Counted from the first letter of the stretch, positions 514-26,554 are shown. The stretch: DNA of 35,105 bases from Thermoplasmata archaeon (GCA_021792655.1 JAJYUG010000001.1:77090-112194), one strand, 5' to 3'. Translations and numbers: made by a program. The notes: generated by a model not told the origin, from the sequence alone.

Positions 514-787
514 ATACGCAGGCAGTAGTTTTAAAAGGCGTATAATTCAGATTATAAACTTTCTGAGTGTCGGGATAGACTCCAGATCTGGATTCCCTTT
601 GAGAAAATACTATCGTTGATATGTCCCTTTCTGGGGCAGTAACTTTTATACTTCTTTTTTTGTTTATCCATCACCTGAAAAAGCCATCATAGTTGTTCCA
701 GTTAGAACAAATGTAGCGAAAATGTTTCTACTTATAAATCAAATTGATACATGCACATTTTAGGGCATCGTATCACTCTAAACATAA

Positions 788-861
788 CGGGTCTGCCGGG
801 ATTTGAACCCGGGTCTCCGGCTTCGAAGGCCATAAGGATATCCTGGCTACCCCACAGACCC
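788..861 (-). tRNA. tRNA-Arg (TCG anticodon)
   Basis: The minus strand folds as a cloverleaf: acceptor GGGTCTG/CAGACCC, anticodon loop CTTCGAA (anticodon TCG), T-arm CCGGG-TTCAAAT-CCCGG. Confidence 0.9.
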
Positions 862-1137
862 ATTCCTCATTGCACACTTTCATAAAGAATTGATCTTGCA
901 GGGATCAGAATTTAAGTGTGGACTGAACTTCATTCCCATGAGGAAATAGGTTGTCTATGTTACCTTCTGATTCAATATAATCAAACAAAGAGTATAACGG
1001 CTTCACTTTCTTTGACCTCTCTGGTCTGTACGGCGTAAGGAAATTGAAACAGATTGAGCATTTTGTCACAAACGATGATACCATGCGGCAATTCCCGTCT
1101 GAATTGTAGATACAGAGTTCGGTATTCGGAATGTAGT

Positions 1138-3756
1138 TCACCGCCTGAGGATTTCGGCTATCTTGGCCATCTCTGCAGAAGCCTTCTTCCCCGTAAATAT
1201 TCCCTTTATGAGTCCTATGACAGAATCATCGTCTGCAAATTTGGCCCTCGCAAGCCCGAGGATAAGAAATGGATAAAATATCACGTTGTAAAGCGCGCTT
1301 CCATCCCATAGGTCAGATACAATTTTCCTTGACTCACTATAGAACGTTTCGGAATCTCCTCTCTTCAAGGCCATTGCAGCATCCAGTGCCCTGGCTGAAT
1401 AGTCAAATTTCATAACACCTGTGCCGGTTGGAAGAGGGCTCAATTTTAGTATTTCATCGAATCTTTCAGTTGCGATAAGGTATATTATCTTGTTCAGTAG
1501 CGTTGTCAACTTGCTGCTGAAGTCCCCCATCTCTTCAGAATACTTCTCAGAAGCCTTTAAAGCCATTTCAGCTTCATTTTTCATTCCTTTCATAACAAAT
1601 ATGTTTGACCAGAAACCAAGGTAAAGAGGTATAAAATCTTCCAGCGAATTGAAAACGGTATTGAAATACTTGAGGTCTAGTTCCGAAACTTTGCCCATTT
1701 TAACCATTATGAGGTGTCGCAGGCTTTCGGACGCGTTTTTCCAGTCAGGGTTTTCCGTCAGGTTGGAAATTTCTACAGCTCTCTCCGAGAAGGGCAATGC
1801 CTTTGCAAAGTCCAGGGCCTCAGTATAGAAAGCAGCTATGTACCTATTATAGATAAATCGTATGTCATTGTCCTGAACAATATCCAAAAGACCGTCCATG
1901 GTCTTCTCATACGACAGGGACTCTTGATTTTTGCCAATAATGTGTAGTATGTCCATGATATTGTAAACGGCGTAGGTCCTGATTCCTACGTCTCCATTTA
2001 TATATGTATTCTCCAGCAACTCCCTGAGCATGTCTAATGCCTTCTGGAAATTGCCTTCGAAACTTTCAATGATTGCAAGGTCGTGCATATTCCTGTTCAT
2101 CTGGCGGATTTTTCCGCGCTTCCTTTCAATCTCCAATGCTTCGCCATACAGCTTCTTTGCCTTGTCAAGCTTGAATATATCGGCATTTGCCGCAGCCATT
2201 GTCGTAAGTACCTCATCAATCTGTTCATTTACGCTATATGCTTGTGCTATTTCCATCGCTTCACTTGCCATTATAAGGGCTTGCGACGATTTCTTGGTTC
2301 TGAGAAGATAAGACCCCTTGGCAACCATTGCCATTACCCTTTCCTCCGGTGAGAGACTCTTGTCGGCAAGCAGCCTCTCTATTATTGTGGCTGCTTCATC
2401 ATTTCTTCCCAGGTAGATGAGAGCAGAAGCTGCCTTCAGCTCGGGTTCCTTTCCAGCGATGTCGCTGAAGTCGTTTTCCCTGAAGCATTTGAGAGATTGT
2501 TCAAACTTGCCCACAAAATAAAGGGAATTGCATTTGATCAACACAGCATAGCGTTTAGTACCGGAATCCAGCTTATCCTCTACAAGATCAAGGAACGCAA
2601 TAAGATCCATGGGTGAAACAAAGGAGTTGATAAGCTGCTTCCATTTGCTTCTTAAAATTTCTCCTATCCTATCGTAAAGCCCTCTCTCTCTCAGTATATT
2701 CAGTTTTGTCTGGAGTGATAATTCATCAAATGAAGAACTGTTGATCAACTGATCTGCAATGTCGAGTTTCCTTACATCTGAAACTTTTGAACGTATTATG
2801 TCCGTCATCCTGCGCCCGGAGATTCTATATTTAAAATTGTTGATGGCTATTATCCCGTTGCTGTCCAGTGATTCCATTACCTTGTAGAGGTCTGATTTTG
2901 ATACCGAAGTTATCCTGCTTATGACATCGAGATCGAGTTCCTCCCCGCTCAGTGCCATGGTCCCTGCGACTTTCATCTCAGTCTCGGAGAGATCAGCGAT
3001 CTTCTTTGCGTAATAATCATCTATTGCAGGCGGTATGGGAAGAAACCTGAAAAGGGCCTCATTCACTTCCTTTCTGTCGTTGATAATTCCTATATCTTCA
3101 TAATATTTCATAGCATAGTTTATCGTGTTAAGGTCTCCAGAGGATAGCCTGAAAAGGTCCATCGTAAAGTTCTCAGGAAGTTTGTAGCCCATCATCTGGG
3201 TGTAAAATCTGGCATCATCATAGTTCGGTTCCCTGAGGTTAATTATGTGTATCTGTGGTTCCGTTGCAGAAACGATGATAAAATTAAACTCTGAGGTATA
3301 CCCCTGGTTTCTCTTTGGCTCATTGTATGTACCAATCAATGAAAATCCTTGTTTAAGTGCAGTTCTGGAAAGGTACAGGAAAAGGTCCTGGCTTGAAGTG
3401 TTCAGCCGTTCAATCCCCTCAATTATTACAAGAATTCTCAAGCCTTTATTATCCGTGAAAAAATTATCGAATTTCCTTATTATTTCATTCATACCTCGCT
3501 CTTCAACCGTGTCATACATTGCGTTGAGTATATAGTTAAACGGCTGGTACGGCATCGATTCCTGGGCTATGTTCCCGGGGAACCTGTATACGAGGTACCC
3601 GTGTTCAGTTGCCAGTGTCTGTGCCATGTCCATAATTTTTTTCTTTCCTCCCGGAAATTTTCCGGATACTAAATGTGTGGAAATCCCCTGTTCTCCTTCC
3701 GAAAGGAATTTCCTGATATGATCCCATGTGGATTGCAGGGAATCTAATTTTTCCAT
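1138..3756 (-). CDS. Large AAA/STAND-like protein with N-terminal NTPase-like domain and TPR-like repeats
   Basis: 872-aa ORF. N-terminal P-loop-like SGKFPGGKKKIMD and Walker-B-like LRILVIIEGIERL, followed by a helical winged-helix/TPR-like region (e.g. AKKLYGEALEIERKRGKIRQMNRNMHDLAIIESFEGNFQKALDMLRELL). Confidence 0.75.
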   Translation of the reverse strand: MEKLDSLQSTWDHIRKFLSEGEQGISTHLVSGKFPGGKKKIMDMAQTLATEHGYLVYRFPGNIAQESMPYQPFNYILNAMYDTVEERGMNEIIRKFDNFFTDNKGLRILVIIEGIERLNTSSQDLFLYLSRTALKQGFSLIGTYNEPKRNQGYTSEFNFIIVSATEPQIHIINLREPNYDDARFYTQMMGYKLPENFTMDLFRLSSGDLNTINYAMKYYEDIGIINDRKEVNEALFRFLPIPPAIDDYYAKKIADLSETEMKVAGTMALSGEELDLDVISRITSVSKSDLYKVMESLDSNGIIAINNFKYRISGRRMTDIIRSKVSDVRKLDIADQLINSSSFDELSLQTKLNILRERGLYDRIGEILRSKWKQLINSFVSPMDLIAFLDLVEDKLDSGTKRYAVLIKCNSLYFVGKFEQSLKCFRENDFSDIAGKEPELKAASALIYLGRNDEAATIIERLLADKSLSPEERVMAMVAKGSYLLRTKKSSQALIMASEAMEIAQAYSVNEQIDEVLTTMAAANADIFKLDKAKKLYGEALEIERKRGKIRQMNRNMHDLAIIESFEGNFQKALDMLRELLENTYINGDVGIRTYAVYNIMDILHIIGKNQESLSYEKTMDGLLDIVQDNDIRFIYNRYIAAFYTEALDFAKALPFSERAVEISNLTENPDWKNASESLRHLIMVKMGKVSELDLKYFNTVFNSLEDFIPLYLGFWSNIFVMKGMKNEAEMALKASEKYSEEMGDFSSKLTTLLNKIIYLIATERFDEILKLSPLPTGTGVMKFDYSARALDAAMALKRGDSETFYSESRKIVSDLWDGSALYNVIFYPFLILGLARAKFADDDSVIGLIKGIFTGKKASAEMAKIAEILRR

Positions 3757-3839
3757 GGCATAACTCTAAACAATGGGTGGTATTAAATGTTAACGAGTAA
3801 GCTAGCCAATCTTTATAGTCTCAACAAAAATTATACAAG

Positions 3840-4775
3840 GTGGAAAGATTAGAAAATAACATCCTCGATATGGAATGCAATCTTTCTGTAACCGGAAACC
3901 TGCAAATGTTTCAGATATCGAAAAAATTTCAGATATTTGCACCAGCTATGCCCTTAATCAGGAAAAACAAGGCCGAGATTTTCTTTTTCTTGCCGGAAGA
4001 ATCCAGCCAGAATATTGAAAGGAGGATATTCCTCGAAAAGTACCAGGCTAAACTTTCCAACAAAACCTGGTTCATTTTGATAAGTAGCGATAATCTAGCA
4101 GATATCCTGCCACTTGTTCAGCTTTCGGAGATAAAATCGGTCTATTTCGAAATGATGTACATGCAGGAAGGTGTCTTTAACATTAACTTCAAATTCCACA
4201 GTTCTGACATAAAAACTGTATCGAGCTACATAATGGAGGCTCTATCCTCAAGCACTCAAAACCTGTCCATAAAACTGGCGTATATGGGATCAAGGAAAAG
4301 TGTCGAGGATTCATTGAGAGTAATTTCCTCACATTTCATGCTTTATTCAGTTACATTTGCATCCAAGCCGCCTTCGCAGAACAAGCTGATTGAAGAAAAC
4401 CCCCTTGGTCTTGAATGGAGGAGATTCATCAGATTTCCCAGTGAGGAGGAAAACATACACGGGTTATATAAGATAATGGGAAAGCCCCACTCACTCAACA
4501 GTGTTAACGTAATAAGCGAGGCGGATGGAATCTATGAGACTGTCACAACAAACCCTGTTCTTAACGAATTTTCCCTTATGGCTAACTCCCAGTCTCTGGC
4601 AAGATTCTGTGAAAATCAGGAGTTCGACGGAAACATCCTCCTGTCTTCTTTTGTAACTATGGAGAGCCATCTTCACTCATATATATCGCTGGTTGACGAA
4701 CTTAATAAGAAGTTTAAGGACTGGTCTATTTACATTGAAAGAGTGATTCCAGTTTCTGATATCACTTCTCAGTAG
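3840..4775 (+). CDS. Uncharacterised protein, paralogue of the protein at 17545..18456
   Basis: 311-aa ORF with GTG start. TATA-like CTTTATAG at 3811-3818 is ~25 nt upstream. It aligns by eye with the 303-aa ORF at 17545..18456. Confidence 0.8.
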   Translation: MERLENNILDMECNLSVTGNLQMFQISKKFQIFAPAMPLIRKNKAEIFFFLPEESSQNIERRIFLEKYQAKLSNKTWFILISSDNLADILPLVQLSEIKSVYFEMMYMQEGVFNINFKFHSSDIKTVSSYIMEALSSSTQNLSIKLAYMGSRKSVEDSLRVISSHFMLYSVTFASKPPSQNKLIEENPLGLEWRRFIRFPSEEENIHGLYKIMGKPHSLNSVNVISEADGIYETVTTNPVLNEFSLMANSQSLARFCENQEFDGNILLSSFVTMESHLHSYISLVDELNKKFKDWSIYIERVIPVSDITSQ

Positions 4776-5518
4776 TTGAGATATATGCGCCTGCCGGATT
4801 CAGTCAGCTTGGTCCTACCAAATTCTGTCATTCCCCGCATTTCCTCAATTGAGAATATTGATCCATCCCTGCACAGTTGAAAGCCGTCAACCGAGCAGGA
4901 GTCGCAGACACCTATTCCACACTTCATCAGGCGTTCCATGGCGAATTCAGCTCTGATTTGCCTGCTGTTAAGGAAATCATATATTTTCTTTAGCATGATC
5001 TCAGGTCCGCACACATATGTCATTTTATATTTCTCCAGATCTATGGTACCGAGGGCATCGATGGGATTTCCACGAATTCCAGCAGAACCGTCATCCGTAA
5101 CCTCAAAAACCTTCCCCCCCTTTATTCTGTCACTGAAGAGAAGTTCAGCAGCAGTTCTCGCGGAGACTATGGCATCACTATCCTTTGTGATGAGAGGTCT
5201 GAGGGAAGCCATTCCAGAACCGCCCCCTACCAGAAGTGTTGGTCCCCTGACAGTTGAGAAAGGCCTTCCATAGGGTCCCCTGAAAAAAATCCTGGATCCT
5301 TTAGTGAGCTTTGTGATAGCGTCTGATGCTGGCCCATAGCTCTTTACAGTGATTGATTTTATTGTGTCGGTTGAGGACAGTGAGATAGGTATTTCGCCTG
5401 TTCCAGGGACCCAAGCCATAATGAACTGCCCTGGCTTTGCCTCCTGTTTCCACTCAAAGTATATTGTTTTCACTGTGGGTGTGTTTTCTTCCACGTTGAT
5501 GACTTCAGAGTGCATCAT
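4769..5518 (-). CDS. pyrK: Dihydroorotate dehydrogenase electron-transfer subunit (FAD/2Fe-2S)
   Basis: 249 aa. FAD/NAD-binding motifs and a C-terminal cluster MKCGIGVCDSCSVDGFQLCRDG. It overlaps the upstream pyrD by 4 nt. Confidence 0.9.
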   Translation of the reverse strand: MMHSEVINVEENTPTVKTIYFEWKQEAKPGQFIMAWVPGTGEIPISLSSTDTIKSITVKSYGPASDAITKLTKGSRIFFRGPYGRPFSTVRGPTLLVGGGSGMASLRPLITKDSDAIVSARTAAELLFSDRIKGGKVFEVTDDGSAGIRGNPIDALGTIDLEKYKMTYVCGPEIMLKKIYDFLNSRQIRAEFAMERLMKCGIGVCDSCSVDGFQLCRDGSIFSIEEMRGMTEFGRTKLTESGRRIYLNY

Positions 5519-6423
5519 TTTCTGATCGCCGCTCCGATGATCTCACGTATGGACTCAATCTTTTCTGCCTTCATTATCTTACCAGTTTCCAGAGACAGTT
5601 GTTTGAAAATATCCCTTCCATCTGAATGTACAGCAGTTCCAACTTCGACGCAGGATGCTCCAGCCATTATGTATTCCAGGGCATCTTCGCCGGTACGGAT
5701 TCCTCCGACCCCTATTATTTCCTTCCCGGTTTCCCGCTTCACCTCATATACATATCGAATGCCCACAGGTTTTATGCAAGGCCCAGACAGTCCCCCATAG
5801 GAATTGCTGAGTACAGGCATTCTTGCGTAGATGTCAATAGCCATTGCCTTTACCGTATTTATGAGGACGTACGCATCAGCTTTCTCTGCCGCCTTTGCGA
5901 TTTCCAGGATGTCACTAATATTCGGGCTCAGCTTAGCAAAAACCGGTATTTTTACCGATCGCTTCACTTCGCCAACTATGGACTCGACAAGATCCGGATC
6001 AGATCCTACCTCCTGGCCGAATCCCTTCACGTGCGGACAGGAGAGGTTAAGCTCAATTGCAGAAGCCCCATATTCTTCCATCTTCCTGGATAATAAGGCA
6101 AACTCTTCTGCAGTTGATCCAAATACACTTCCAATTACCGGCTTCATGGATTCTCTTGCAATCTTCATCTCTTCCCCGAAATTGTCGATTCCAGGATTCG
6201 CAAGCCCAATTGCATTGATCATGTTCCTCCCGTCAATCTCTACGACAACAGGAGTACGGTATCCGCTCCTTTCAGAGATACCGATGGATTTAGTCACAAC
6301 AGCTGCAGCTCCTTCGTCCAGTACTCTCTTCATCGTGTAGCCATTTTCATCCAGTATGCCTGAAGCGAGAATAAATGGGTTATCGAGCCTGATACCGGAT
6401 ATCTGCGTATTTAATCTGTTCAT
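5515..6423 (-). CDS. pyrD: Dihydroorotate dehydrogenase, class 1
   Basis: The track ORF 5515..6495 likely starts at the internal ATG at 6423 (MNRLNTQISGIRLDNPFILASGILDENG). Contains ELNLSCPHVKGFGQ and GVGGIRTGEDALEYIMAGASCVEVGTA. Confidence 0.92.
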   Translation of the reverse strand: MNRLNTQISGIRLDNPFILASGILDENGYTMKRVLDEGAAAVVTKSIGISERSGYRTPVVVEIDGRNMINAIGLANPGIDNFGEEMKIARESMKPVIGSVFGSTAEEFALLSRKMEEYGASAIELNLSCPHVKGFGQEVGSDPDLVESIVGEVKRSVKIPVFAKLSPNISDILEIAKAAEKADAYVLINTVKAMAIDIYARMPVLSNSYGGLSGPCIKPVGIRYVYEVKRETGKEIIGVGGIRTGEDALEYIMAGASCVEVGTAVHSDGRDIFKQLSLETGKIMKAEKIESIREIIGAAIRK

Positions 6424-6523
6424 GGTGTCCTTCTTCAGCAGATCATCGCTGGTTATAAAAGGGTTAGGAGCAGTCCAGATAAAATACGCGAACATCCCCT
6501 TGAATGAATGATGGCATTGAGAT

Positions 6524-7045
6524 CTATTGGAATTCTTCTGCAGGGAAATGATCCAGGATTATTATCTTCTGTGAATCTCTTTTTGTGATTGCGGTATTAG
6601 TCTGTATCCTGATTCCATAAGCATAGAGGGTCGAATATATCATGTTGACTTCTATATTTGACAGGAACATGTTTCCACCAAGAAGCGAAAAGGCCCTGCA
6701 GGCGGTATTGTTAGCATACTTCATCACCAGCTGGTCGGAAACGGATAGGTACTCGCGGATAAGTTTATCCGTGATATCGTTGCTGATAACCACGCGAGAC
6801 GCTCCGGATACAAAGGTGTCAATAAGATCTGGAACCCTGTATGGGTAATTCATCACGACAAGCTCAAAATATTTTGACAAATTGCCATATAGCTTCAAAT
6901 TTGGAGCCCCTGACCTGATCGAATCCAGATCTACAACAAATAGGTCTTCAATACCACTTTTAAGCAGGTCTTCAAGTGTACGGTTATCTCTTATTTCTCC
7001 ATTCTGAATTGTGATGCATTCCATTGGACAGATATGGATGTTCAT
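6524..7045 (-). CDS. HisA/proFAR-isomerase-related protein, half-length
   Basis: 173 aa. IEDLFVVDLDSIRSGAPNLKLYGNLSKYFELVV and DTFVSGASRVVISNDI resemble HisA-type (beta/alpha) strand-loop motifs. Confidence 0.55.
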   Translation of the reverse strand: MNIHICPMECITIQNGEIRDNRTLEDLLKSGIEDLFVVDLDSIRSGAPNLKLYGNLSKYFELVVMNYPYRVPDLIDTFVSGASRVVISNDITDKLIREYLSVSDQLVMKYANNTACRAFSLLGGNMFLSNIEVNMIYSTLYAYGIRIQTNTAITKRDSQKIIILDHFPAEEFQ

Positions 7046-7235
7046 TCTATATAAATAGATGAATCATTATCTGCAGTGATAAGGAATGTCATAGGAAATT
7101 TATCCGTTGGAAAGATATATGTTAAGATTTATAAGAATTTTTAGATGCCTGCTGCACTAAGCACCAAAAAATTATAACTGCATATGTGCAGTCGTGGAAA
7201 GAAAACATTAAATTTGCGTTGCCGTTAGCTTATCC

Positions 7236-8054
7236 ATGGTAGAAGCTCCCCCGCCATATGCCATAAGGCTGCAGAAGCTCCTGGTTCCAATGGGGAAAGG
7301 CTACCGTTCCAAGCGCGTGCTTCAGATTGCCTTTGACCTAGCGCGTTCATATGATTCTGAAGTCACCGCATTCACAGTGAAGGAAACAACACAGGAAATT
7401 ACGTGGAGCGACAAGGTATCCCTCGTTACTGGCGCATTCAAGGACGGGAAGGATGAGCGGATAAAAGTTGTTCCCAGGATCCGGATGGCTGACTCGGTGA
7501 GAGAAGGCATTGTCGCGGAGAGCCTGGCCCATAATTATGATCTTCTATTCATAGCAACGTGGAAGCGGTCTTCGCTTTCAGCTTCACTGTTTGGGGGTAT
7601 TGGCGACTACGTGATCAAGAATTCTGGTACGACTACTGCTGCACTGAGTGTGAAGAATAACCAGTATCCTTACAGGAGGATACTTGTTCCCATATCGGAG
7701 GACATAAACACGAGAACTGCTATCGCTTTTTCCCTTTACCTGAAAAAAGCGATTAACGCTTCGCTTTACCTTGTGGATATGAGGAAGTACGACAAAACCA
7801 GGACCCATGGATTCAGGATGCTGTTCGAGAACATGGATAGGATAGTGGGAAGTTACGGTCCAGAAATAAATTTCACAAGATCAGGTATGACGACATCTTT
7901 CAAGGACGAGATACTTTTTCACTCCAGGCAGATCAAACCCGACCTGATAGTGCTGGGAATCCGTCGCGGCAAAGGGGGAAAAGTTCGCATTAATGCTGCC
8001 ATAAAATCCGTGATCAAGGATACGGATCAGGATGTCTTTCTAATCAAGAAATGA
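7236..8054 (+). CDS. Tandem universal stress protein (Usp) domain protein
   Basis: 272 aa with two repeated Usp-like units (LQKLLVPMGKGYRSKRVLQIAFDLARSYDSEVTAF and YRRILVPISEDINTRTAIAFSLYLKKAINASLYLV). TATA-like ACATTAAATTT ~26 nt upstream. Confidence 0.8.
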   Translation: MVEAPPPYAIRLQKLLVPMGKGYRSKRVLQIAFDLARSYDSEVTAFTVKETTQEITWSDKVSLVTGAFKDGKDERIKVVPRIRMADSVREGIVAESLAHNYDLLFIATWKRSSLSASLFGGIGDYVIKNSGTTTAALSVKNNQYPYRRILVPISEDINTRTAIAFSLYLKKAINASLYLVDMRKYDKTRTHGFRMLFENMDRIVGSYGPEINFTRSGMTTSFKDEILFHSRQIKPDLIVLGIRRGKGGKVRINAAIKSVIKDTDQDVFLIKK

Positions 8055-8687
8055 AGGTTGAACAAAACCGCCTTGCATAAGCTTGTCTATAATTTCGAAG
8101 TTCAGCGTAACGGTGTTCACATATGGTGACCCGAAAATTGGAAAATTATACATTATATCCGAGGCAGTGATGTTAACAACGAAGTTCTGTGCATCAGCAT
8201 AGGAAAAGCTGCCATTCGTCAAAACTGAAAGGTTCGTCGCAATCCTGTTGATCTGGTCTATGGCACCCTGAAGTGGAATGTTGGGATCAAGTCCTGATCC
8301 TGAATACGCTACCATTGCTTCAGGAATCTGGGAGGCGTTAGAAAGGTTGTTTTCTTTCTCGAAGTCCTTCAGGTAACTCTTCGTCTGGTTAAGGAGCTGG
8401 CCGCTGTCAAGGGAGTAGGAAGGCCCACCCGACTGTGACAGGTTGAAACCGATACCGGATGGTCTGGCCTGAAAGAATATTGATGAGTTGAACGCCTCGG
8501 CAAGCAGGTATGATCCATATACCTTTCCATCTATTTTTACCGGGGACCCGGTGGCAGAATTTGGATCAACCTCCTGTGTTATAAGGGCAGTTATGGTCGG
8601 AAATGCAAAGCCGAGAAGGAACATTGCAATTATCGCTAGTGCAGTCGTCTTCATTATCATCTTACCGAATGAATTCTTCTTCACCAT
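8040..8687 (-). CDS. kdpC: K+-transporting ATPase C chain
   Basis: 215 aa. N-terminal TM segment, then KVYGSYLLAEAFNSSIFFQARPSG and NIPLQGAIDQINRIA. It lies directly downstream of kdpB and overlaps it. Confidence 0.92.
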   Translation of the reverse strand: MVKKNSFGKMIMKTTALAIIAMFLLGFAFPTITALITQEVDPNSATGSPVKIDGKVYGSYLLAEAFNSSIFFQARPSGIGFNLSQSGGPSYSLDSGQLLNQTKSYLKDFEKENNLSNASQIPEAMVAYSGSGLDPNIPLQGAIDQINRIATNLSVLTNGSFSYADAQNFVVNITASDIMYNFPIFGSPYVNTVTLNFEIIDKLMQGGFVQPSFLD

Positions 8688-10672
8688 CCCACCCCCAAAA
8701 TTGAAAGCAGTACATATATAACTTTGATAGCTAAAAATGGAACAATTATTCCTCCGAGTCCGTATATGAGTATATTTCTTCTGAAAAGCTCTGCAATGCT
8801 GGACGGTCTGTATCTGACGCCCCTGATTGCCATCGGAACCATAAGCGGTATGATTATGGTATTGAAGATCAGTGCGGATGTTATCGCCGTCAGGGGATTC
8901 TCAAGCCCAAGTATGTTTAGCGCACCGAGCGCTGGAATGAAATAGAACATGGCTGGGATTATTACGAAATACTTTGACACATCGTTAGCTATGCTGAAAG
9001 TTGTCAGTGCGCCTCTAGTGATCAGTATCTGCTTTCCTATGAATATAACATCCATCAGCTTTGTGGGGTCGGAATCCAGGTCAATCATGTTGGCTGCATC
9101 CTTGGCCGGCGCAGTTCCCTTGTTCATGGCCATTCCAACGTCAGCCTTTGCCAGGGCTGGAGCATCATTGGTTCCGTCACCCACCATTGCCACCATCCGC
9201 TGCTTTGCCTTCTCAGATATCACAACATTGAATTTGTCCACTGGCGTGCTATTGGCAACATATTCATCGATTCCGCTGAGGTTCGAGAAATATGATGCAG
9301 TGACTTCGTCATCACCGGTGCACATTATAGTTTTTATATTCATCTTCTTTAGGAGGTCCAGACGCTGTTTTATTCCAGGTTTCAGGGTGTCATTAAGTTC
9401 AATTACGCCAACAAATTTACCGTCCTTAACGACAGGCAATGCGGTGCCACCCCTAAGTGATATCTCCTTACAGAGTGCGACAATAAAAGTATCGCTGAGC
9501 TTGTGATTCTTGAGCATTGTTGAAAGCGCCCCCTTATAGATGTATGTATCTTTACCCTTAACTCCGCTGAACCTCGTATCTGCAGAGAACGGCAGGAATT
9601 CAAACCCAGCCAGATCCGCATCAGAAACTTCTACTCCCTTTTCCCTGGCCAGTTTCACTATGGACATACCTTCCATTGTGTTGTCTTGCAGGGAAGCCAG
9701 CGCACAGTACTTTATAAAATCCTTCTCCTGCACGCTGGAATTCGGATAAAACCGGATGGCCTCCCTGTCCCCCATTGTGACTGTGCCGGTCTTGTCCAGA
9801 ATAATGGTGTCCACATCTCCGGCATTTTCCACAGCTCTGCCAGATTTGGATATGACGTTGAATTGTGATATCTTGTTTACAGCTGCAATACCGATTGCCG
9901 GCATCAGCCCTCCGATTGTTGTGGGGATGAGCGCAATTAGCAAGACTATCAATATGTCCGTGTTGGAAGTGAAACCAAGGAAATCAGATAAAGCAAATAT
10001 TGAGGCGGTGACCATGAGGAATATGAGAGTCAGGCCCGATAATAGGGTGGATAGGGCAATTTCATTTGGCGTCTTTTCCCTGACTGCCGCCTCAACTATT
10101 TCGATCATCTTGTCTATATACGTTTCTCCAGGGTTTGCGGTGATCCTGATTACAAGTTCATCGGTCTGCAGGGTCGTTGACCCCGTAACGCTGTCTCCCT
10201 GTATCTTACGGACGGGCCTGGATTCCCCCGTTACATTGGATTCGTTAACATAGCCAGATCCGGAAACAACTTCGCCATCTCCGGGAATGACCTCACCTGC
10301 ACTTACTATCACCAAGTCACCGGATCTCAGTTGATCCGATGGGACTGTCTCCTTTACGCTGTCATTGACCCGAGTGGCATTTGTCTCTGTCTTCATTTTT
10401 TTCAGGGATGCGGAGATCGTTTTGCTCTGCTCCTCAGACAGGGTGGTACTTAGATTTGAAAAGAGCAGGGTCAGGAAGAGCAGTATCGCCACTGCAATGT
10501 AGAAGCTGATATATACCCCAGTTGAAGGGGCATCAAAATATGAAGGGAAAAACACTACAAAAATTGAGATTATGAAAGCAATTTCGGTCACAAACATGAC
10601 CGGGTTCTTCATCTGGAAATCCGGCCTGAATTTCTCCATCGTCCCTCTAATGACCGCTCCATATCCTTTCAA
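8681..10672 (-). CDS. kdpB: K+-transporting P-type ATPase B chain
   Basis: 663 aa. P-type motifs DKTGT, TGES and GDGTNDAPALA, with Kdp-specific context (ALIPTTIGGLMPAIGIAA). Confidence 0.98.
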   Translation of the reverse strand: MKGYGAVIRGTMEKFRPDFQMKNPVMFVTEIAFIISIFVVFFPSYFDAPSTGVYISFYIAVAILLFLTLLFSNLSTTLSEEQSKTISASLKKMKTETNATRVNDSVKETVPSDQLRSGDLVIVSAGEVIPGDGEVVSGSGYVNESNVTGESRPVRKIQGDSVTGSTTLQTDELVIRITANPGETYIDKMIEIVEAAVREKTPNEIALSTLLSGLTLIFLMVTASIFALSDFLGFTSNTDILIVLLIALIPTTIGGLMPAIGIAAVNKISQFNVISKSGRAVENAGDVDTIILDKTGTVTMGDREAIRFYPNSSVQEKDFIKYCALASLQDNTMEGMSIVKLAREKGVEVSDADLAGFEFLPFSADTRFSGVKGKDTYIYKGALSTMLKNHKLSDTFIVALCKEISLRGGTALPVVKDGKFVGVIELNDTLKPGIKQRLDLLKKMNIKTIMCTGDDEVTASYFSNLSGIDEYVANSTPVDKFNVVISEKAKQRMVAMVGDGTNDAPALAKADVGMAMNKGTAPAKDAANMIDLDSDPTKLMDVIFIGKQILITRGALTTFSIANDVSKYFVIIPAMFYFIPALGALNILGLENPLTAITSALIFNTIIIPLMVPMAIRGVRYRPSSIAELFRRNILIYGLGGIIVPFLAIKVIYVLLSILGVGW

Positions 10673-12447
10673 CGAATCACCATCCAGATTGACTGCTCAA
10701 AGGCCCTGGCCCACGAGAGTATGGGTCCCAGGGCGAGGATCGGAAAGAAAGAAAGCAGTCCTACAAGCAGCATTACACCAAGAAGCATGAGCCCAAAGTA
10801 GAACGACCCAGTATCAATGCTCTTCCCGATCTCAACCTTTGGCTTCTTGTTTGAAAAGAGATCGGCTATCTTCAGCTGGAACCCCATGATCACGTATCTT
10901 CCAAGGATCATAATTATGCCGTCCAGCACGTTGAAGTAGACCTGGTTTGTAAGAAACCCACCGACCTCAGAACCGTTGTTTGAGGCGGAGGTCGCAAACT
11001 CGTATAGGAGTTCCGTGATGGCATCCGGTTTTGGATTCGTGAATGAGGCCATTATGCTCGGGATCATGAGGGTAACACCCAGAGGAATTATTATCAACAG
11101 GGGATGGGTAATAAGGGAGAGCGTAGAATACTTGATCTCCTTAGATCCAATTTTAATGCTCATCAGTTCAGGAAGCTTCCCTACCATGAGGGATGCAATG
11201 AACACTGTAAAAATCACTGAGGTGAAAATATTAAGGACACCCGTACCTATTCCGCCGACCGGATCATTTATCAGGAGGTTGACTAGGTTTCCCAGAAGCC
11301 CAGCCGGAGAATATGCAGCCAGTATTGCATTGGATGCGCCGGTGGATGTGATGGTGGCCCCAATGCTGAAAATGGAAGAACCTGCTATTCCTATGGCAGT
11401 TTCCTTCCCTACCATGTTTCCATTGTAGATGACGCCAAGCGTGGATAGGGATGGTATTCCGGTTATTTCACCGTAGAAAGTGAGAAATGCGGTAAAAACA
11501 AAGAAAATCATCAGGACAGAAACAAGCATGACCATGAACCGGCGATTGCTGAAAACCCTGCCAAGCGCTATTATAGACCCAAGTGGGATGAGAAGGAAAG
11601 AGGTAAACTCCGTAATGTTTGTGAACCAGTTCGGATTCTCGAATGGGAACGCTGCGTTCGCTCCATAAAACCCTCCGCCGTTTGTTCCTATGTTCTTGAT
11701 AGCTTCCAGAGTTGCAACGGAGCCAAGCGGCACCCTGTACGTAACCGAGGAAAATACTGGCTGCACACTGATGTAGGACAGAGTTGTTTCGGGAATTCCA
11801 CTTATTATCAGTATAACAGTTACCAGAAGGGTGAGAGGGAGTATAAGGTAGAATATTGAGACGAGGAAGTCGTGGTAGAAGTTTCCAATCGTACCCTTAT
11901 CCTGAAGAATTCCCCTTATGAAGGCCATTGATGCGGCAAAACCGGTTCCTGCGGATAGGAACATAAGGCCGGTAATTACGAATGTCTGGCTCAGGTAGGA
12001 GAGATCGAAAGGGTTGGAATAGTGCTGCAGGTTGGTATTGGTCAGGAAACTGCTTACGGTGTTGAATGTCAGGCTCACCGTCATGTGATTGTTTGCAAAT
12101 GCAAAGGGAAAATCTCTCTGGTAAAAAATAAAAATGAATGATATTACGCCGGCAGCAGCATTGAAAAATAGCAAGGTAAGAAAATACTCCCTGAATTTCA
12201 TCTGCCGTTCAGATCCCTCGCCTATGATCTTCTCGAAAAAGCTCACGATCCGACCAGAGATGGGCGTGAGCCAGGTGTCCTGATCTCTGTATATCTTAGA
12301 GATGAAGCTGGAGATTATCACCCCGAATATAATCACGATTGCAAGGTAGATAAGTATGATGACTACCCCGGATGCAACTCTGTTTACCTGCCAGAAAGAG
12401 TTGCCATATCCGGACAGGGATGAGATGCCAAATGGATCATAACTCAA
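10669..12447 (-). CDS. kdpA: K+-transporting ATPase A chain
   Basis: 592 aa, multi-TM. Selectivity-type motif NIGTNGGGFYGANAAFPFENP. TTG start overlapping the kdpF stop codon. Confidence 0.96.
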   Translation of the reverse strand: MSYDPFGISSLSGYGNSFWQVNRVASGVVIILIYLAIVIIFGVIISSFISKIYRDQDTWLTPISGRIVSFFEKIIGEGSERQMKFREYFLTLLFFNAAAGVISFIFIFYQRDFPFAFANNHMTVSLTFNTVSSFLTNTNLQHYSNPFDLSYLSQTFVITGLMFLSAGTGFAASMAFIRGILQDKGTIGNFYHDFLVSIFYLILPLTLLVTVILIISGIPETTLSYISVQPVFSSVTYRVPLGSVATLEAIKNIGTNGGGFYGANAAFPFENPNWFTNITEFTSFLLIPLGSIIALGRVFSNRRFMVMLVSVLMIFFVFTAFLTFYGEITGIPSLSTLGVIYNGNMVGKETAIGIAGSSIFSIGATITSTGASNAILAAYSPAGLLGNLVNLLINDPVGGIGTGVLNIFTSVIFTVFIASLMVGKLPELMSIKIGSKEIKYSTLSLITHPLLIIIPLGVTLMIPSIMASFTNPKPDAITELLYEFATSASNNGSEVGGFLTNQVYFNVLDGIIMILGRYVIMGFQLKIADLFSNKKPKVEIGKSIDTGSFYFGLMLLGVMLLVGLLSFFPILALGPILSWARAFEQSIWMVIR

Positions 12448-12533
12448 AATTTCTCAGCTCCAATTATGGTGTAAAGCAGGTATATGGCTGTAAAGAGCAA
12501 CACCAGCCCTAGAATGACATAGACTGCAAGCAT
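12444..12533 (-). CDS. kdpF: K+-transporting ATPase F subunit (29 aa), absent from the ORF track
   Basis: Minus-strand translation is MLAVYVILGLVLLFTAIYLLYTIIGAEKF*: one TM helix ending in YTIIGAEKF, like the KdpF ending YALINAEAF. Its TGA overlaps the TTG start of kdpA. Confidence 0.9.
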   Translation of the reverse strand: MLAVYVILGLVLLFTAIYLLYTIIGAEKF

Positions 12534-12554
12534 CGCAGAATGCCAATGCAATGG

Positions 12555-12563
12555 GATATAAAA
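12555..12563 (-). promoter_or_regulatory. TATA box of the kdpFABC operon
   Basis: Minus-strand TTTATATCC, centred ~26 nt upstream of the kdpF ATG at 12533. Confidence 0.6.
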
Positions 12564-12652
12564 GTATTGTCCAGCATAATCATCCCTACGCAGGACTTAA
12601 TGCGCTCATTAGCCACTCCCGTTAACCAGAAAGGAATCCTTGATCTCCCTTC

Positions 12653-14191
12653 TCATATGGTCTTGCCCATGTAAGGGCCAACACGTTCGTAGCCCAGCTT
12701 TCTGAAATAGTTTCTCACACCGATACCACTAATTACAAGCATTCTTTTCAAGCCGCAGTCTGAGCTTATCTTTTCAGCTTCGTTAAGAAGTTCAGATCCC
12801 AGACCCTGGTGTTGCCACCCATTTATGGCGTGCCTGCCCAGCGGTACCACGTTTCCAAATATCTTCAATTCCCTTATGATAGACGAATCCACAATTTCCT
12901 TCCTATGGGCATTTGCCGAAGGTATCCTCAGGCGGACAAAACCGATTATCTTGTCTTCTGAATCCTCATAAGATAGAAAGTGTTCAGTGCCTCCGGCAGC
13001 ATCGTAACTACCTTTTTTCAGTTTAAAATCGCTGGAGAAGAGTTCACCAGCAACTTCTCTTCCCCTGATTTCCATGCTCCTGATCCCTCTCCTCTCCAAT
13101 TCATCGGTCACAAGGTTCCTGATATCGCTTCTCTTAACTCCAGCTTCGATGAATTTAACCGGAATATCGCGTTGCATTCTCTGCACCCTGATCCATGGCG
13201 GCATCCTCTCCATAAGATAGGTTATCAGGTCCACAGCTGTCCCAGTGTCAAGCGGATCGTATCTTCCCAGCTTCCACAATCTGTAAAGGGATGTCCCCCT
13301 GGTGACCAGGGTCGGATAAATTTTCAGCATATCAGGCTTGAAAGCGGGATCATCGAGCATCAGGTCAAAGCTTTTTAAGTCCTGCTCGTAGCTGGATCCG
13401 TACATACCTGGCATTATATGGTATACTATTTTCAATCCAGCATCCCTGGACAGCTGAGTTGATCTCCTTATATCATCAAGTGTGTGCCCACGCATGTTTA
13501 TTTTAAGGATTCGATCGGATAGGTTCTGTACTCCGAGCTCCACCTTCGTTGTACCATAGTTAAGGGCTGTGTCTATCTCGCGCTCAAAGAACCAGTCCGG
13601 CTTTGTCTCCACTGTTAGGCCTATGCATCTCTTTCCAGCACTTTCGTTGGCTAGAACAGACTCTTCGAGGTTCCTGCTGATTGTGCCATTCATTGCATCG
13701 ATGCAACCCTTGATGAAGCTGGTCTGGTATGCCTCTTCCCTGGCGGTGAAAGTACCACCCATAATTATCAGATCTATCTTTGAGGTGTCATGGCCAATGA
13801 GATCCAGTTGCTTTACGCGGTTGAAAACCTGGTTGTATGGGTCGTAATTGTTATTTCTTCCCCTGAGAGCAGCAGGCTCGTGCCCTGTATAGGACTGAGG
13901 TGAATTGTTGTCCACTCCTCCGGGGCAGTAAATGCATTTGCCATGGGGGCAGTTGTCAGGTGAGGTCATTGCCGCAACAACCGCAACTCCAGATATTGTT
14001 CTGGTGTTTTTTATGCGCAGCAGGTCTCTCTCTTCCTCGGAGAAGTTGCCTGAATTAAGAATCTCCACATCGCTGGGGATAAAGTCCAGTGACAACTCCT
14101 TTGCAAGCCTGATCTTCAGGTTCTGCAAATCCTTCTTGTTTCGGACCTGCCCGGATTTAATCTTTTCCCCTATGACTTCATAGAAATCCAC
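12653..14191 (-). CDS. elp3: Elp3-type tRNA uridine-34 modification enzyme (radical SAM + GNAT)
   Basis: 512 aa. CPHGKCIYCPGG, GGTFTAREEAYQ, ELGVQNLSDRIL, and a C-terminal GNAT domain ending WQHQGLGSELLNEAEKI...GVRNYFRKLGYERVGPYMGK. Confidence 0.95.
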   Translation of the reverse strand: MDFYEVIGEKIKSGQVRNKKDLQNLKIRLAKELSLDFIPSDVEILNSGNFSEEERDLLRIKNTRTISGVAVVAAMTSPDNCPHGKCIYCPGGVDNNSPQSYTGHEPAALRGRNNNYDPYNQVFNRVKQLDLIGHDTSKIDLIIMGGTFTAREEAYQTSFIKGCIDAMNGTISRNLEESVLANESAGKRCIGLTVETKPDWFFEREIDTALNYGTTKVELGVQNLSDRILKINMRGHTLDDIRRSTQLSRDAGLKIVYHIMPGMYGSSYEQDLKSFDLMLDDPAFKPDMLKIYPTLVTRGTSLYRLWKLGRYDPLDTGTAVDLITYLMERMPPWIRVQRMQRDIPVKFIEAGVKRSDIRNLVTDELERRGIRSMEIRGREVAGELFSSDFKLKKGSYDAAGGTEHFLSYEDSEDKIIGFVRLRIPSANAHRKEIVDSSIIRELKIFGNVVPLGRHAINGWQHQGLGSELLNEAEKISSDCGLKRMLVISGIGVRNYFRKLGYERVGPYMGKTI

Positions 14192-14273
14192 ATAAACACC
14201 ATCACATTCAGAATTTAACGTTTTTGAGGCTTCTGGTGCGTAAGGTTAAAATCTACTTTCCATATAACAAGGT

Positions 14274-14762
14274 ATGGCGGTAGAAACCTATTCTGTGCCG
14301 CTGGATTTTCCCGAGGGGACAAACGCCATCCTGGGATATTCACATTTTATTAAGACGGTTGAAGATTTGACGGAAATCATCTCAACTGCGGTACCAGGGG
14401 CGAAATTCGGGGTTGCTTTCTCGGAAGCTTCCGGGGACAAGCTGGTAAGATATGATGGAACCGACGCAGAACTTGAGAAGATAGCGGTTGATAACATATT
14501 ACGTATTTCCGCCGGTCATACATTCATGATCATACTGAAGAACCTTTATCCGATCAATGTCCTGAACGCAATCAAGGGATGCCAGGAAGTGGGCAGCATC
14601 TTTGCAGCAACTTCAAACCCTGTTGAAGTGATAATAGCAAAGGGAACGAGAGGAAACGGGGTTATCGGAGTGATTGACGGGTTCTCTCCAGTTGGTGTCG
14701 AGAATGAGAATGATAAAAATACCAGGAGAAAATTCCTCAGGGAGATAAACTACAAGAAATAG
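14274..14762 (+). CDS. Adenosine-specific kinase-like protein (PF04008-type)
   Basis: 162 aa. Family-typical GAKFGVAFSEASGDKLVRYDG, AGHTFMIILKNLYPINVLNAIK and RGNGVIGVIDGFSPVGVE. TATA-like GGTTAAAA ~26 nt upstream. Confidence 0.88.
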   Translation: MAVETYSVPLDFPEGTNAILGYSHFIKTVEDLTEIISTAVPGAKFGVAFSEASGDKLVRYDGTDAELEKIAVDNILRISAGHTFMIILKNLYPINVLNAIKGCQEVGSIFAATSNPVEVIIAKGTRGNGVIGVIDGFSPVGVENENDKNTRRKFLREINYKK

Positions 14763-14834
14763 GGCCCGTAGTGTAACGGATTATCATATAGGCCTCCGGA
14801 GCCTATGATCCGGGTTCGAATCCCGGCGGGCTCA
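14762..14834 (+). tRNA. tRNA-Arg (CCG anticodon)
   Basis: Acceptor GGGCCCG/CGGGCTC, anticodon arm TAGGC-CTCCGGA-GCCTA (anticodon CCG), T-loop TTCGAAT, discriminator A. The first base is the last base of the upstream TAG stop codon. Confidence 0.92.
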
Positions 14835-14988
14835 CTCATTGGCATTATGCACTTCATATAACTTCAGCAAGCTACAATATCTTTCCAGACTTACTCCATG
14901 TGTAACCTATCAATAATAGAGAAATGGGGATCATTAATGGAAGAACTACGAAAGTCCAGAAGTCATTCCCCATAATAGTACTAATAGT

Positions 14989-15408
14989 TTGCTGACAATG
15001 CATTTTGGAGTTGACATGGTAGATGGTCTCAAAGAACAAATCATTGATGATAGGGAATTGTCTCCCGATAAATCTTCGGTAACCTACAAACTTGCAGATA
15101 ATCTCGATTTCTCACGATCTAGGGAATTTACGAGGATCCTCGCAGATATATTCTTCGAGAAAGATTATTCATTAAAGAAGAAGAGAACGGTAAGATCAAA
15201 AAAAAAAACATGAAGGACTTTGAAAAGGGTCTTAAGGATGAAATGTTCAAGAATTTTTATAGAGAGCTGCAGTTTTCATCGATTCTTTCCCCATTCAATA
15301 TCGATATGCGCGCTTCCTCTTTTTTCCCATGGAGCAAATGGAACCCCCCTTCACATCCAAAAGCTGTTGGATGAAGTCATGAAAAATACCACCATCAGGT
15401 ATATTTGA
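14989..15408 (+). pseudogene. Disrupted or frameshifted small gene around an A11 tract
   Basis: The 74-aa ORF ends right after A11 (AGATC-A11-CATGA). The -1 frame continues MKDFEKGLKDEMFKNFYRELQFSSILSPFNIDMRASSFFPWSKWNPPSHPKAVG*, and a further frame ends ...KLLDEVMKNTTIRYI*. Confidence 0.4.
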
Positions 15409-15561
15409 ATGAGTGCCTCTGCCGAATCATCGAAAGCGCTTCTGATAAAACATATAGCATTCAGCGGATTAACGTTTTTATGATCATACATTTTCAGAAT
15501 TGCTTTGGGAACAAACTATTTTTTGAAAATTAACCCATCTTTCACCTCGATGGAAAGACAT

Positions 15562-15867
15562 TCAGGACAGAAAGGGATCATTGGCATATGAGATCCCCAG
15601 TGTATCGTATGGGAACGGTGAATAGAAAGCCGAATAGGAGAACGTGATAAGCTGTGTATTCTCATCCGGCATTATCCCATCTGGTAACCACAAGCCGTAA
15701 CAACTAGCAAGGAAGTAAACGGAGTATCGCGGATAGGTCATGCCGCTCTTTGTCCATGCTTCACGGATTTTATCTAAGACGTCACGATAAAGTTTCAAAC
15801 CTATTTCATTTGCTGCATTAGAGATAGATCCGACTTTCCGGGATAAGTTATTTAGAATAGTTATCAT
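15562..15867 (-). CDS. Uncharacterised ~101-aa protein
   Basis: C-terminal part of the 171-aa track ORF from the internal ATG at 15867 (MITILNNLSRKVGSISNAANEIGLKLYRDVLDKIREAWTKSGMTYPRYSVYFLASCYG...). The upstream part is antisense to the ORF at 15944 and is probably not coding. Confidence 0.45.
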   Translation of the reverse strand: MITILNNLSRKVGSISNAANEIGLKLYRDVLDKIREAWTKSGMTYPRYSVYFLASCYGLWLPDGIMPDENTQLITFSYSAFYSPFPYDTLGISYANDPFLS

Positions 15868-15943
15868 GGCAGGTTTTATGTGGGATTCAGGAATATTGAC
15901 GAAATGCATTGTTGCTAGGTTCGACACAAGTCTTCCCAGAATA

Positions 15944-16879
15944 ATGGCAGATCGCAAGTTGGAAGTCAGGTTGAACAACAGATTCGTGATGCTTGCAGAA
16001 GAAAATGGAGAATATTCTCTATTCACCAACCTTGGCAGGGATATTTCTGATACAGAAAGAAAGATAATTGAAGGCAACGTGGATTCTAATGGGCAACGAA
16101 TGATTTATTTTGTTGCGCCAACCGTATTAAAGATTCCCATGTCAAACAGTGAGAGACATCGAAGATTCCAGCAAAGAATCCGCACTATCAACGCCATTCC
16201 TGGGTTCAGGGCTAACGCGTGCATGCTGCTGCATTCCCAGAAAATATACCTGGAGATTGATTACGATGAAATGGCCATGATGGAGCATCCCGAGGAAGCG
16301 ATGCAGCTTATCACCTCTATAATCGGGGAAAATGAAATCGTGTACATTGGAGACCAGCCAGATCAGTACCCGTACATAATCAAACTCTTTCTGGAACATG
16401 GTGGTAACCTCCAGGACTTTTCAGAGGTAAGGACTGAGTGGAACATGACACAGGCTGAGATAGAACAGGAGAACACCGGGATATTCAGTACTCAGTCAAC
16501 ATTTGCCCTCAAGTTATTCAGCTCTGGGCCATCCAATAAACTTATTCTTAAGTGCACTGATAAAGAACCCGGAAAAGAAACAAGGGGATCCATCATCAAT
16601 AAGGACAAGCTGATATGGGAATTAGATCTGAGCAGCAGCTTTTTCCAGGATCTATTCAGCGAGGTTTTTAAGTCGTATTTTGGGGCTATATTTTTCTGCG
16701 CCAGCGTTTCAAGAGACACATTAGCTACAAGTTACATCGTTGAATCCAATCTAATCAATGATTTTCTTTCCGGTCTGAGCAAGCACTGGAATAAGGATCG
16801 CAGGAAATTGCATCACAATGCCATAATCGGGGTCGATACATTGATCAAGGGGCAAAAGGTAAAATATCCCATTATATAG
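15944..16879 (+). CDS. Uncharacterised protein, possible distant relative of the 3840/17545 pair
   Basis: The track ORF 15866..16879 has a plausible internal ATG at 15944 (MADRKLEVRLNNRFVMLAEENGEYSLF...). Similar length, with no recognised domain. Confidence 0.65.
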   Translation: MADRKLEVRLNNRFVMLAEENGEYSLFTNLGRDISDTERKIIEGNVDSNGQRMIYFVAPTVLKIPMSNSERHRRFQQRIRTINAIPGFRANACMLLHSQKIYLEIDYDEMAMMEHPEEAMQLITSIIGENEIVYIGDQPDQYPYIIKLFLEHGGNLQDFSEVRTEWNMTQAEIEQENTGIFSTQSTFALKLFSSGPSNKLILKCTDKEPGKETRGSIINKDKLIWELDLSSSFFQDLFSEVFKSYFGAIFFCASVSRDTLATSYIVESNLINDFLSGLSKHWNKDRRKLHHNAIIGVDTLIKGQKVKYPII

Positions 16880-17051
16880 TGAAAAATGTATTGTGTTTCA
16901 TTCCATTTTCCTTGTGGAAAAATTATCGGCATTTATGGTGTCTAACGTGATATTCAGGTTTAGGGGAATATGAGAAGCTATTGAAAAAAGGATGGCAGAT
17001 TGTGCCAGTAGATTGGCTTGTCACAGATGCGGCAGTGCCATGGTGTGTAGT

Positions 17052-17456
17052 TCAGGAGAATGGCCATTGGCTTGAGGCAGTTGTTTTCTGTTTGGACAAT
17101 TCTGCAACAACATCAATTTCAACCAGCACATCAGGGGACGGAAATCCAGTGACGATGGTGGTTCTTGCTGGAGGATTCTTTGTGAAATATTTTGCGTACA
17201 GTTCATTCATTTTCTGAAAATCGCTGGAATTGGCGAGATACACATTGCATTTCACCACTGAATCCAGAGATGATTCACTTAGTTTCAGGATGTTCGAAAT
17301 CTTTTCCATTGCTCCCTGAAACTGTTCATTAAATGATGATTTAATCCCGGCGGTGTTGCCCGTTTGTCCGGAAAGAAAGACAAGGCCATTGGAAATCACT
17401 GCATGTGAGTATGCTCCAGCCTTCAGTACCTCAGGAGAATTTATTGTCTGTGCCAT
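17052..17456 (-). CDS. RidA/YjgF/YER057c family protein
   Basis: 134 aa. GAYSHAVISNGLVFLSGQTG, VVKCNVYLANSSDFQKMNELYAKYF and PARTTIVTGFPSPDVLVEIDVVA. Confidence 0.93.
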   Translation of the reverse strand: MAQTINSPEVLKAGAYSHAVISNGLVFLSGQTGNTAGIKSSFNEQFQGAMEKISNILKLSESSLDSVVKCNVYLANSSDFQKMNELYAKYFTKNPPARTTIVTGFPSPDVLVEIDVVAELSKQKTTASSQWPFS

Positions 17457-17544
17457 GGTTTACTTAGACAGATCAGACTAATAAGGATTCTTAAGCAAAC
17501 CCCCCTAATTCCAGGCGACTGCATGCTCAAACCCGGATCTGTAA

Positions 17545-18456
17545 CTAAAAAGAGTCTGGATTATCCCTGAATTTCCAGAAGCCTGTAATCCGTATTTTCC
17601 ATTCCGGGAACCTTAAAGCAGTCATAGTCAGGAGCTTTATGGGCATATTCCCGAAGCTTTCCGGAAAAATATTTAATACGGTAAGCAGACGGTCATTGAG
17701 GTCATGAATTCTCATAACGTGTATCATGCCGTATTTACGGTCTTCCCGTGTCAGGTTTTCAGTTACGGGGTTACGAGTCTCAGCCTCGAAAATCCTGTCG
17801 TATACCATCATCCCGGAACCTGCCGCTGGTTGTGCGTTGGTAAAGTATACTGCAGATATGTCCTCTCCTGAGGGAGTTATTTTTATTATTCTGGTCCATC
17901 TGTTTCCGATCGGATTGCGTTCCGGTGTCATTTCAAAGTCAGGTGCAATGCCAGTCGATTTCATAACAAGCAGGGGGACCCTCTCATCAATTCTTCCCAG
18001 TATGTGCTTCAGTCCACGCGATTTGCCAAGATATTCAACCATCAGGGGGACATGGGCTGATATGTCCAGGAGGTGAGACGAAACAGAATCCAGCACCGAA
18101 CTGTGGAACACGAAGGCAAACCTGTAGGTGCCATTGTCAAGAATTGCGGAGACCAGCACAAGCGAAGGGATTGATACGAAATCAAAGAAAGCGCCAGAAA
18201 GGTTTTCATCCTCGAGAGATCGTCTCACTATGTACATATTCTCCCGCTTCTCGGCGGAAAATTCCTTCAGGAAAACGGCCCCATCTCTCTCTTGATCAAG
18301 TTCCGAAGGAAGGTAATAAACAATCTGTCCTCCATTCATTTCTTTAAAAAGGCCACAGCTACTCCTTATCCCGAATTTTCTCGAAAGCTGACAGATGCGG
18401 TTTTTTGCTTCCCACAAAATGACAAGTTCCGAATCAAGGAAATCCGGTAGCTGCAC
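17545..18456 (-). CDS. Uncharacterised protein, paralogue of the protein at 3840..4775
   Basis: 303-aa ORF. Shares FHSSxxxxVSSxxxx, xxYxGxxxxxxxxL and ENP[LI]GxxWxRxI with the 3840 ORF. Confidence 0.8.
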   Translation of the reverse strand: MQLPDFLDSELVILWEAKNRICQLSRKFGIRSSCGLFKEMNGGQIVYYLPSELDQERDGAVFLKEFSAEKRENMYIVRRSLEDENLSGAFFDFVSIPSLVLVSAILDNGTYRFAFVFHSSVLDSVSSHLLDISAHVPLMVEYLGKSRGLKHILGRIDERVPLLVMKSTGIAPDFEMTPERNPIGNRWTRIIKITPSGEDISAVYFTNAQPAAGSGMMVYDRIFEAETRNPVTENLTREDRKYGMIHVMRIHDLNDRLLTVLNIFPESFGNMPIKLLTMTALRFPEWKIRITGFWKFRDNPDSF

Positions 18457-26481: not shown

Positions 26482-26554
26482 TGCGGGTGCCGGGATTTGG
26501 ACCCGAGGCACGAGCTTGGCAAGCTCGCGTGTTACCAGGCTACACCACACCCGC
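26482..26554 (-). tRNA. tRNA-Gly (GCC anticodon)
   Basis: Minus-strand cloverleaf: acceptor GCGGGTG/CACCCGC, anticodon arm CGAGC-TTGCCAA-GCTCG, T-arm TCGGG-TCCAAAT-CCCGG, discriminator A. Confidence 0.92.

Follow-up and report, generated by a model that had tools for sequence, protein, structure and literature searches.

The closest described relatives of the proteins considered here are the members of the Ta1207 family (Pfam PF19020), which is already catalogued and structurally solved, in the form of Thermoplasma acidophilum Ta1207 (Protein Data Bank [PDB] entry 5m86), but has no assigned function. A literature search of open papers returned none on Ta1207, 5m86, or PF19020, and NCBIfam and PADLOC gave no match to the family; PHROGs matches were scattered, one-member, and near E 0.001-0.1, and we took them as chance. 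Two better-known kinds of protein invite comparison as well, namely ACT-domain or tandem ferredoxin-like regulators and the archaeal Bat/HTH_10 regulators. The locus analyzed here is a 35,105-nucleotide stretch of a Thermoplasmata archaeon genome (GCA_021792655.1, JAJYUG010000001.1:77090-112194; hereafter, the window), which encodes two canonical, or type A, members of the family, designated P1 and P2, and a third, divergent relative, designated type B:

3840..4775, plus strand: P1, canonical (type A) Ta1207-family protein, 311 amino acids, GTG start
17545..18456, minus strand: P2, canonical (type A) Ta1207-family protein, 303 amino acids, GTG start
15866..16879, plus strand: type B member of a divergent subfamily, 337 amino acids, with a profile-profile link to type A

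Both canonical proteins match PF19020 over their whole length, P1 with an E value of 4e-72 (243 bits, model positions 1-275 of 277) and P2 with an E value of 4.3e-60 (203.5 bits, full model), against a curated cutoff of 26.3 bits. Among solved structures, sequence searches reached entry 5m86 alone (E 4.9e-9 from P1 and 7.7e-56 from the family profile). AlphaFold models, made with alignments of the window proteins and fetched relatives, had a mean predicted local distance difference test score of 84.8 for P1 and 86.1 for P2, and in Foldseek both reached the same fold, with 5m86_A as the sole strong PDB match of each (E 1.1e-22 and template modeling [TM] score 0.80 for P1; E 5.8e-20 and TM score 0.82 for P2). 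A preliminary description of the window had recognized no known domain in these proteins, and the full-model matches show that this was wrong. Its picture of an unfamiliar family is only half overturned, however, because the family is named and its structure solved but it has not been functionally characterized. P1 and P2 thus share with Ta1207 the full-length profile, the fold, the length, and the lineage; they differ in that the 5m86 sequence belongs to another ortholog group and reads like the DIDxIFDSQ group of loci L041 and L008, not like the clades of P1 and P2.

The same description had called P1 and P2 divergent paralogs, and this was borne out. Both open reading frames (ORFs) are present, and BLASTP aligns them over almost their whole length (74.7 bits, E 7e-20, 22% identity, 295 columns). 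The best of 1,000 composition-matched shuffles of P2 scored 25.0 bits, far below the 74.3 bits of the real P2, so the paralogy is real; all five pairs of sequence blocks quoted in its support occur in both translations. Orthologs of P1 stand at the same genomic place in genomes G128 (69% identity) and G180 (58%), head to head with an AAA/TPR gene and tail to tail with a PyrK-like gene, while P2 has an ortholog in G128 (62%) with its RidA-like, GNAT-like, and malic-enzyme-like neighbors retained (neighbor-gene names here and below come from sequence inspection unless a family search is cited). In the tree, P1 groups with its own orthologs of G128 and G180, and P2 with its own G128 ortholog, with high support. 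Because each is far closer to its sister-genome ortholog than the two are to one another, they are not recent duplicates; P1 and P2 are ancient, separately maintained paralogs. With ortholog identities of 69% and 62%, they rank at or near the bottom of their synteny blocks, in which most neighbors stand at 66 to 91%.

The idea of a two-copy family held in that both copies are real, but the count did not, since the source genome has 12 PF19020 places above the cutoff (two of them contig-end fragments) in addition to the divergent relative at 15866-16879. Two of these copies stand end to end, one on each strand, shortly before the window begins (G000:C74:75127-77005, L128); counting them, about 20 kb of C74 holds four canonical genes and one B gene. 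Across the order, a PF19020 match was found in 89 of 117 genomes, all in two families (75 genomes in f1 and 14 in f4) and with 1 to 14 matches per genome, about a dozen in the genome at hand; the listed genomes of families f2 and f3 had none. A survey of the phylum (390 genomes) found matches in those same two families only, and neither the 14 well-known control genomes nor the plasmid and phage collections yielded any. The expected restriction to Thermoplasmatales is therefore what we found. With about a dozen copies in 1.4 Mb, the family can be estimated to account for roughly 1% of the gene content of some streamlined Thermoplasmatales genomes.

Some copies are decaying. One in G128 (G128:C1:1574012-1574777) is shattered into three frames, and copies in G093 and G245 each carry one internal stop, which points to birth and death among Ta1207 copies. 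Variable copy number, the shattered copy, and identities at or near the bottom of the synteny blocks are also features of a family engaged in genetic conflict, in defense or counter-defense, but this is the least probable of the alternatives that we weighed: there was no PADLOC match, the phage and plasmid collections held no member, and the genes adjoin ordinary metabolic genes and are kept vertically in place within the window's genus.

The third relative would have gone unseen in direct comparisons. The ORF at 15866-16879 has no Pfam or NCBIfam match of its own, does not reach the PF19020 cutoff, and gave no signal in direct BLASTP against P1 and P2, so its relationship to type A is visible only through the profile of the B family; profile against profile, the two types align over 274 to 296 columns with E values of 1.8e-10 to 2.8e-10 and a probability of 97%. 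Homologs of B in sister genomes coincide with PF19020 matches, some of them strong (1.5e-37 in G128, above the cutoff), whereas the window protein, which stands further from Ta1207 than P1 and P2 do, escapes the Pfam model. Judging from these profiles, the ORF is a divergent sister subfamily of the Ta1207 superfamily rather than a direct PF19020 member. Homologs of B occur in 49 of the 117 genomes of the order, mostly one per genome, and they are better conserved than type A: P169, W192, G205, and N318 (window B numbering) are invariant among the aligned sequences, and K216, D262, R313, and H316 are nearly so. The invariant residues of this unannotated subfamily provide targets for mutation.

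Types A and B are also linked in the genome. In eight genomes from five genera (G239, G450, G171, G128, G207, G396, G413, and G151), an A gene lies immediately upstream of a B gene on the same strand, sometimes overlapping it, and in four others the two are joined in one open frame of 656 to 681 amino acids (G142, G316, and G416, all of genus g6, and G406). The A partners of the tandem pairs form one clade, the A half of G406 included (Shimodaira-Hasegawa-like approximate likelihood ratio test support of 100), while the A halves of the g6 fusions belong to a different clade, that of P2. It follows that A and B came to be linked, or their linkage was fixed, on at least two occasions. Repeated independent linkage in operons or fusions is a classic signature of interacting partners, so A and B, on this genomic evidence, probably form a complex. 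Three genomes carry the g6 fusion; that of G406 comes from one genome and might be an artifact of assembly. This analysis newly adds the previously unrecognized B subfamily and its linkage to type A in operons and fusions, from which comes the first concrete, testable partner prediction obtained here. At three loci, a SAM (S-adenosylmethionine)-methyltransferase-like gene stands close to an A-B pair or an A copy (L146 11137-11877, L130 8967-9707, and L089 11028-11825), a recurrence that may be chance.

Taking together the family, the fold, the A-B operon and fusion, the lineage restriction, and the long-term retention of separate orthologs, we propose, with a rough probability of 40%, that Ta1207 proteins are soluble, nonenzymatic, oligomeric ACT-like regulatory subunits without a DNA-binding domain; what we infer beyond those observations is the hetero-oligomer, the binding of a ligand, and a regulatory output. 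The repeated ACT-like units would assemble into homo- or hetero-oligomers, in which each canonical A paralog would be dedicated to a neighboring metabolic or regulatory locus and B, as the more conserved common partner, would pair with certain A proteins. A small molecule lodged at the unit interfaces would then change the contacts of the oligomer.

Several observations fit this proposal. The secondary structure of both the P1 and P2 models is a run of beta-alpha-beta-beta-alpha-beta (ferredoxin/ACT-like) units, with a weak internal repeat between units 2 and 4 (E 0.0016, 45 columns). This topology is repeated in ACT-domain and tandem ferredoxin-like regulators such as 2nyi and aspartate kinase, which are among the weak Foldseek matches; P1 and P2 differ from these regulators in having no significant sequence or fold match to them, so the comparison is an analogy only, and a Pfam search found no ACT domain in either protein. 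The 5m86 entry contains ten identical chains, which as a chain count alone is compatible with an oligomer. The upstream neighbor is divergently oriented for 35 of 61 family genes versus 237 of 639 other genes (Fisher p 0.002), and a divergent upstream neighbor is common for local regulators. The neighbors are by inspection mostly ordinary metabolic genes, beside which the Ta1207 genes are kept within the window's genus.

Other observations weigh against our proposal. The divergent excess is modest, with p 0.03 with family-family neighbors, and it was obtained from crude ORF calls with related genomes counted. No single neighbor recurs across the family except in A-B pairs and A-A clusters, and the family has no known ligand, partner, or phenotype. 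The ACT/ferredoxin Foldseek matches beyond 5m86 are individually weak, with TM scores of at most 0.24 on the query. No adjacent A gene was seen in 37 of the 49 B-bearing genomes, whose flanks were read in part. In the window itself, B and P2 lie 665 bp apart on different strands, separated by a RidA-like gene; B and P2-like copies also share one contig in G411, at a similar distance.

The oligomers could instead be structural. As scaffolds, Ta1207 proteins would form abundant rings or shells without sensing a ligand, and the paralogs would vary the composition of hetero-oligomers. The ten chains deposited for 5m86 and the A-B operon and fusion would suit this role equally, as would the lack of a conserved catalytic set in type A, in which no residue is invariant and the conserved positions look structural. 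Scaffolds usually stay conserved, however, whereas Ta1207 genes diverge at or near the highest rate in their synteny block (69% identity for P1 against 73 to 91% for most neighbors) and number from 1 to 14 per genome, and we hold a scaffold role to be possible but doubtful.

The enrichment beside divergent genes would also be in keeping with nucleic-acid-binding regulators whose ferredoxin-like units contact RNA or DNA directly, much as the tandem ferredoxin folds of Cas6/RAMP proteins bind nucleic acid, and Foldseek did return weak rows to Cas6 (E about 0.04). The probability of those rows was only 0.09-0.11, and conserved basic residues are few in type A (His 120 and the residue at 118, which is Arg in 70%). 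Direct DNA binding is further argued against by the acidity of Ta1207-family proteins, whose median isoelectric point is 5.7, versus 6.4 for other genes. On balance, we find this alternative distinctly unlikely.

A last alternative concerns where a sensing module might have come from. The preliminary description had noted a loose resemblance to the ligand-sensing N-terminal region of Bat/HTH_10 regulators (PF04967), together with the absence of a C-terminal helix-turn-helix (HTH), and Ta1207 proteins might accordingly be sensor modules derived from such regulators by loss of the HTH. HTH_10 proteins are present in the same genomes (61 of 61 family genomes sampled), and by eye their N-terminal 150 amino acids could conceivably hold two beta-alpha-beta-beta-alpha-beta units, in a secondary-structure order possibly similar to that of Ta1207 and with a 22-column start that aligns. 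Profile-profile comparison lends the resemblance no support: hhalign of HTH_10 against Ta1207 is limited to those 22 columns (E 0.02, probability 2%), and the HTH_10 N terminus is not significant against either A or B. The N terminus of the HTH_10 protein that was scanned matches Pfam HVO_A0563_N (PF24280), which P1 and P2 do not, and a search for solved structures of HTH_10 proteins of this type returned none. The C-terminal HTH of these regulators has, as had been noted, no counterpart in Ta1207, as no HTH match was obtained in P1, P2, or B, member frames end after the Ta1207 region except in A-B fusions, and no HTH was seen fused to a family member. Descent from Bat/HTH_10 regulators thus seems very unlikely.

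Should the regulatory-subunit proposal hold, it might extend to A and B together as a sensor system specific to the Thermoplasmatales lineage, modular and hetero-oligomeric, in which a dozen fast-diverging, ACT-like A subunits, each tied to a pathway, would in some cases share the conserved B. We regard this extension as unlikely as it stands; if true, the system would amount to a post-translational or transcriptional signaling network that dispenses with classical DNA-binding and kinase domains.

The remaining features of the window lie beside or between the family members:

1138..3756, minus strand: NTPase/TrmB-like winged-helix/TPR protein (the AAA/TPR gene), 872 amino acids, head to head with P1, candidate partner
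3811..3817, plus strand: TATA-like box CTTTATA, about 25 bp upstream of the P1 GTG, conserved in the G128 and G180 spacers
17052..17456, minus strand: RidA-like gene between B and P2, 134 amino acids, syntenic beside the P2 ortholog in G128, named by inspection
787-862, minus strand: tRNA-Arg (tcg)
14762-14835, plus strand: tRNA-Arg (ccg)
26482-26554, minus strand: tRNA-Gly (gcc)

The 872-amino-acid protein matches TPR_12 (8.6e-13) and, below the cutoff, a TrmB-like winged HTH (4e-4). Its gene is widespread (39 of 61 family genomes) and is separated from P1 by a head-to-head spacer of 83 bp in the window (3757-3839). The spacer measures 82 to 84 bp across the three genomes, all of the window's genus, in which it was compared; the CTTTATA box within it is a putative promoter element of P1. 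The gene adjoins a Ta1207 gene in two further genomes. The pairing was seen in the window's genus and in one near-identical bin. The more distant AAA/TPR homologs that were checked have no Ta1207 gene alongside, so the pairing is local, and we rejected the AAA/TPR protein as a general Ta1207 partner. Blocks in G398 (C102) and G411 (C44) are near-identical, with PF19020 scores of 243 and 235.6 in both and 92% identity of each to the AAA/TPR gene of the window, in bins assigned to different genera; binning contamination is a possible origin of the G398 block. Between 7236 and 12447, a universal-stress-like gene on the plus strand adjoins a kdpC-kdpB-kdpA-like potassium ATPase set on the minus strand, all named by inspection.

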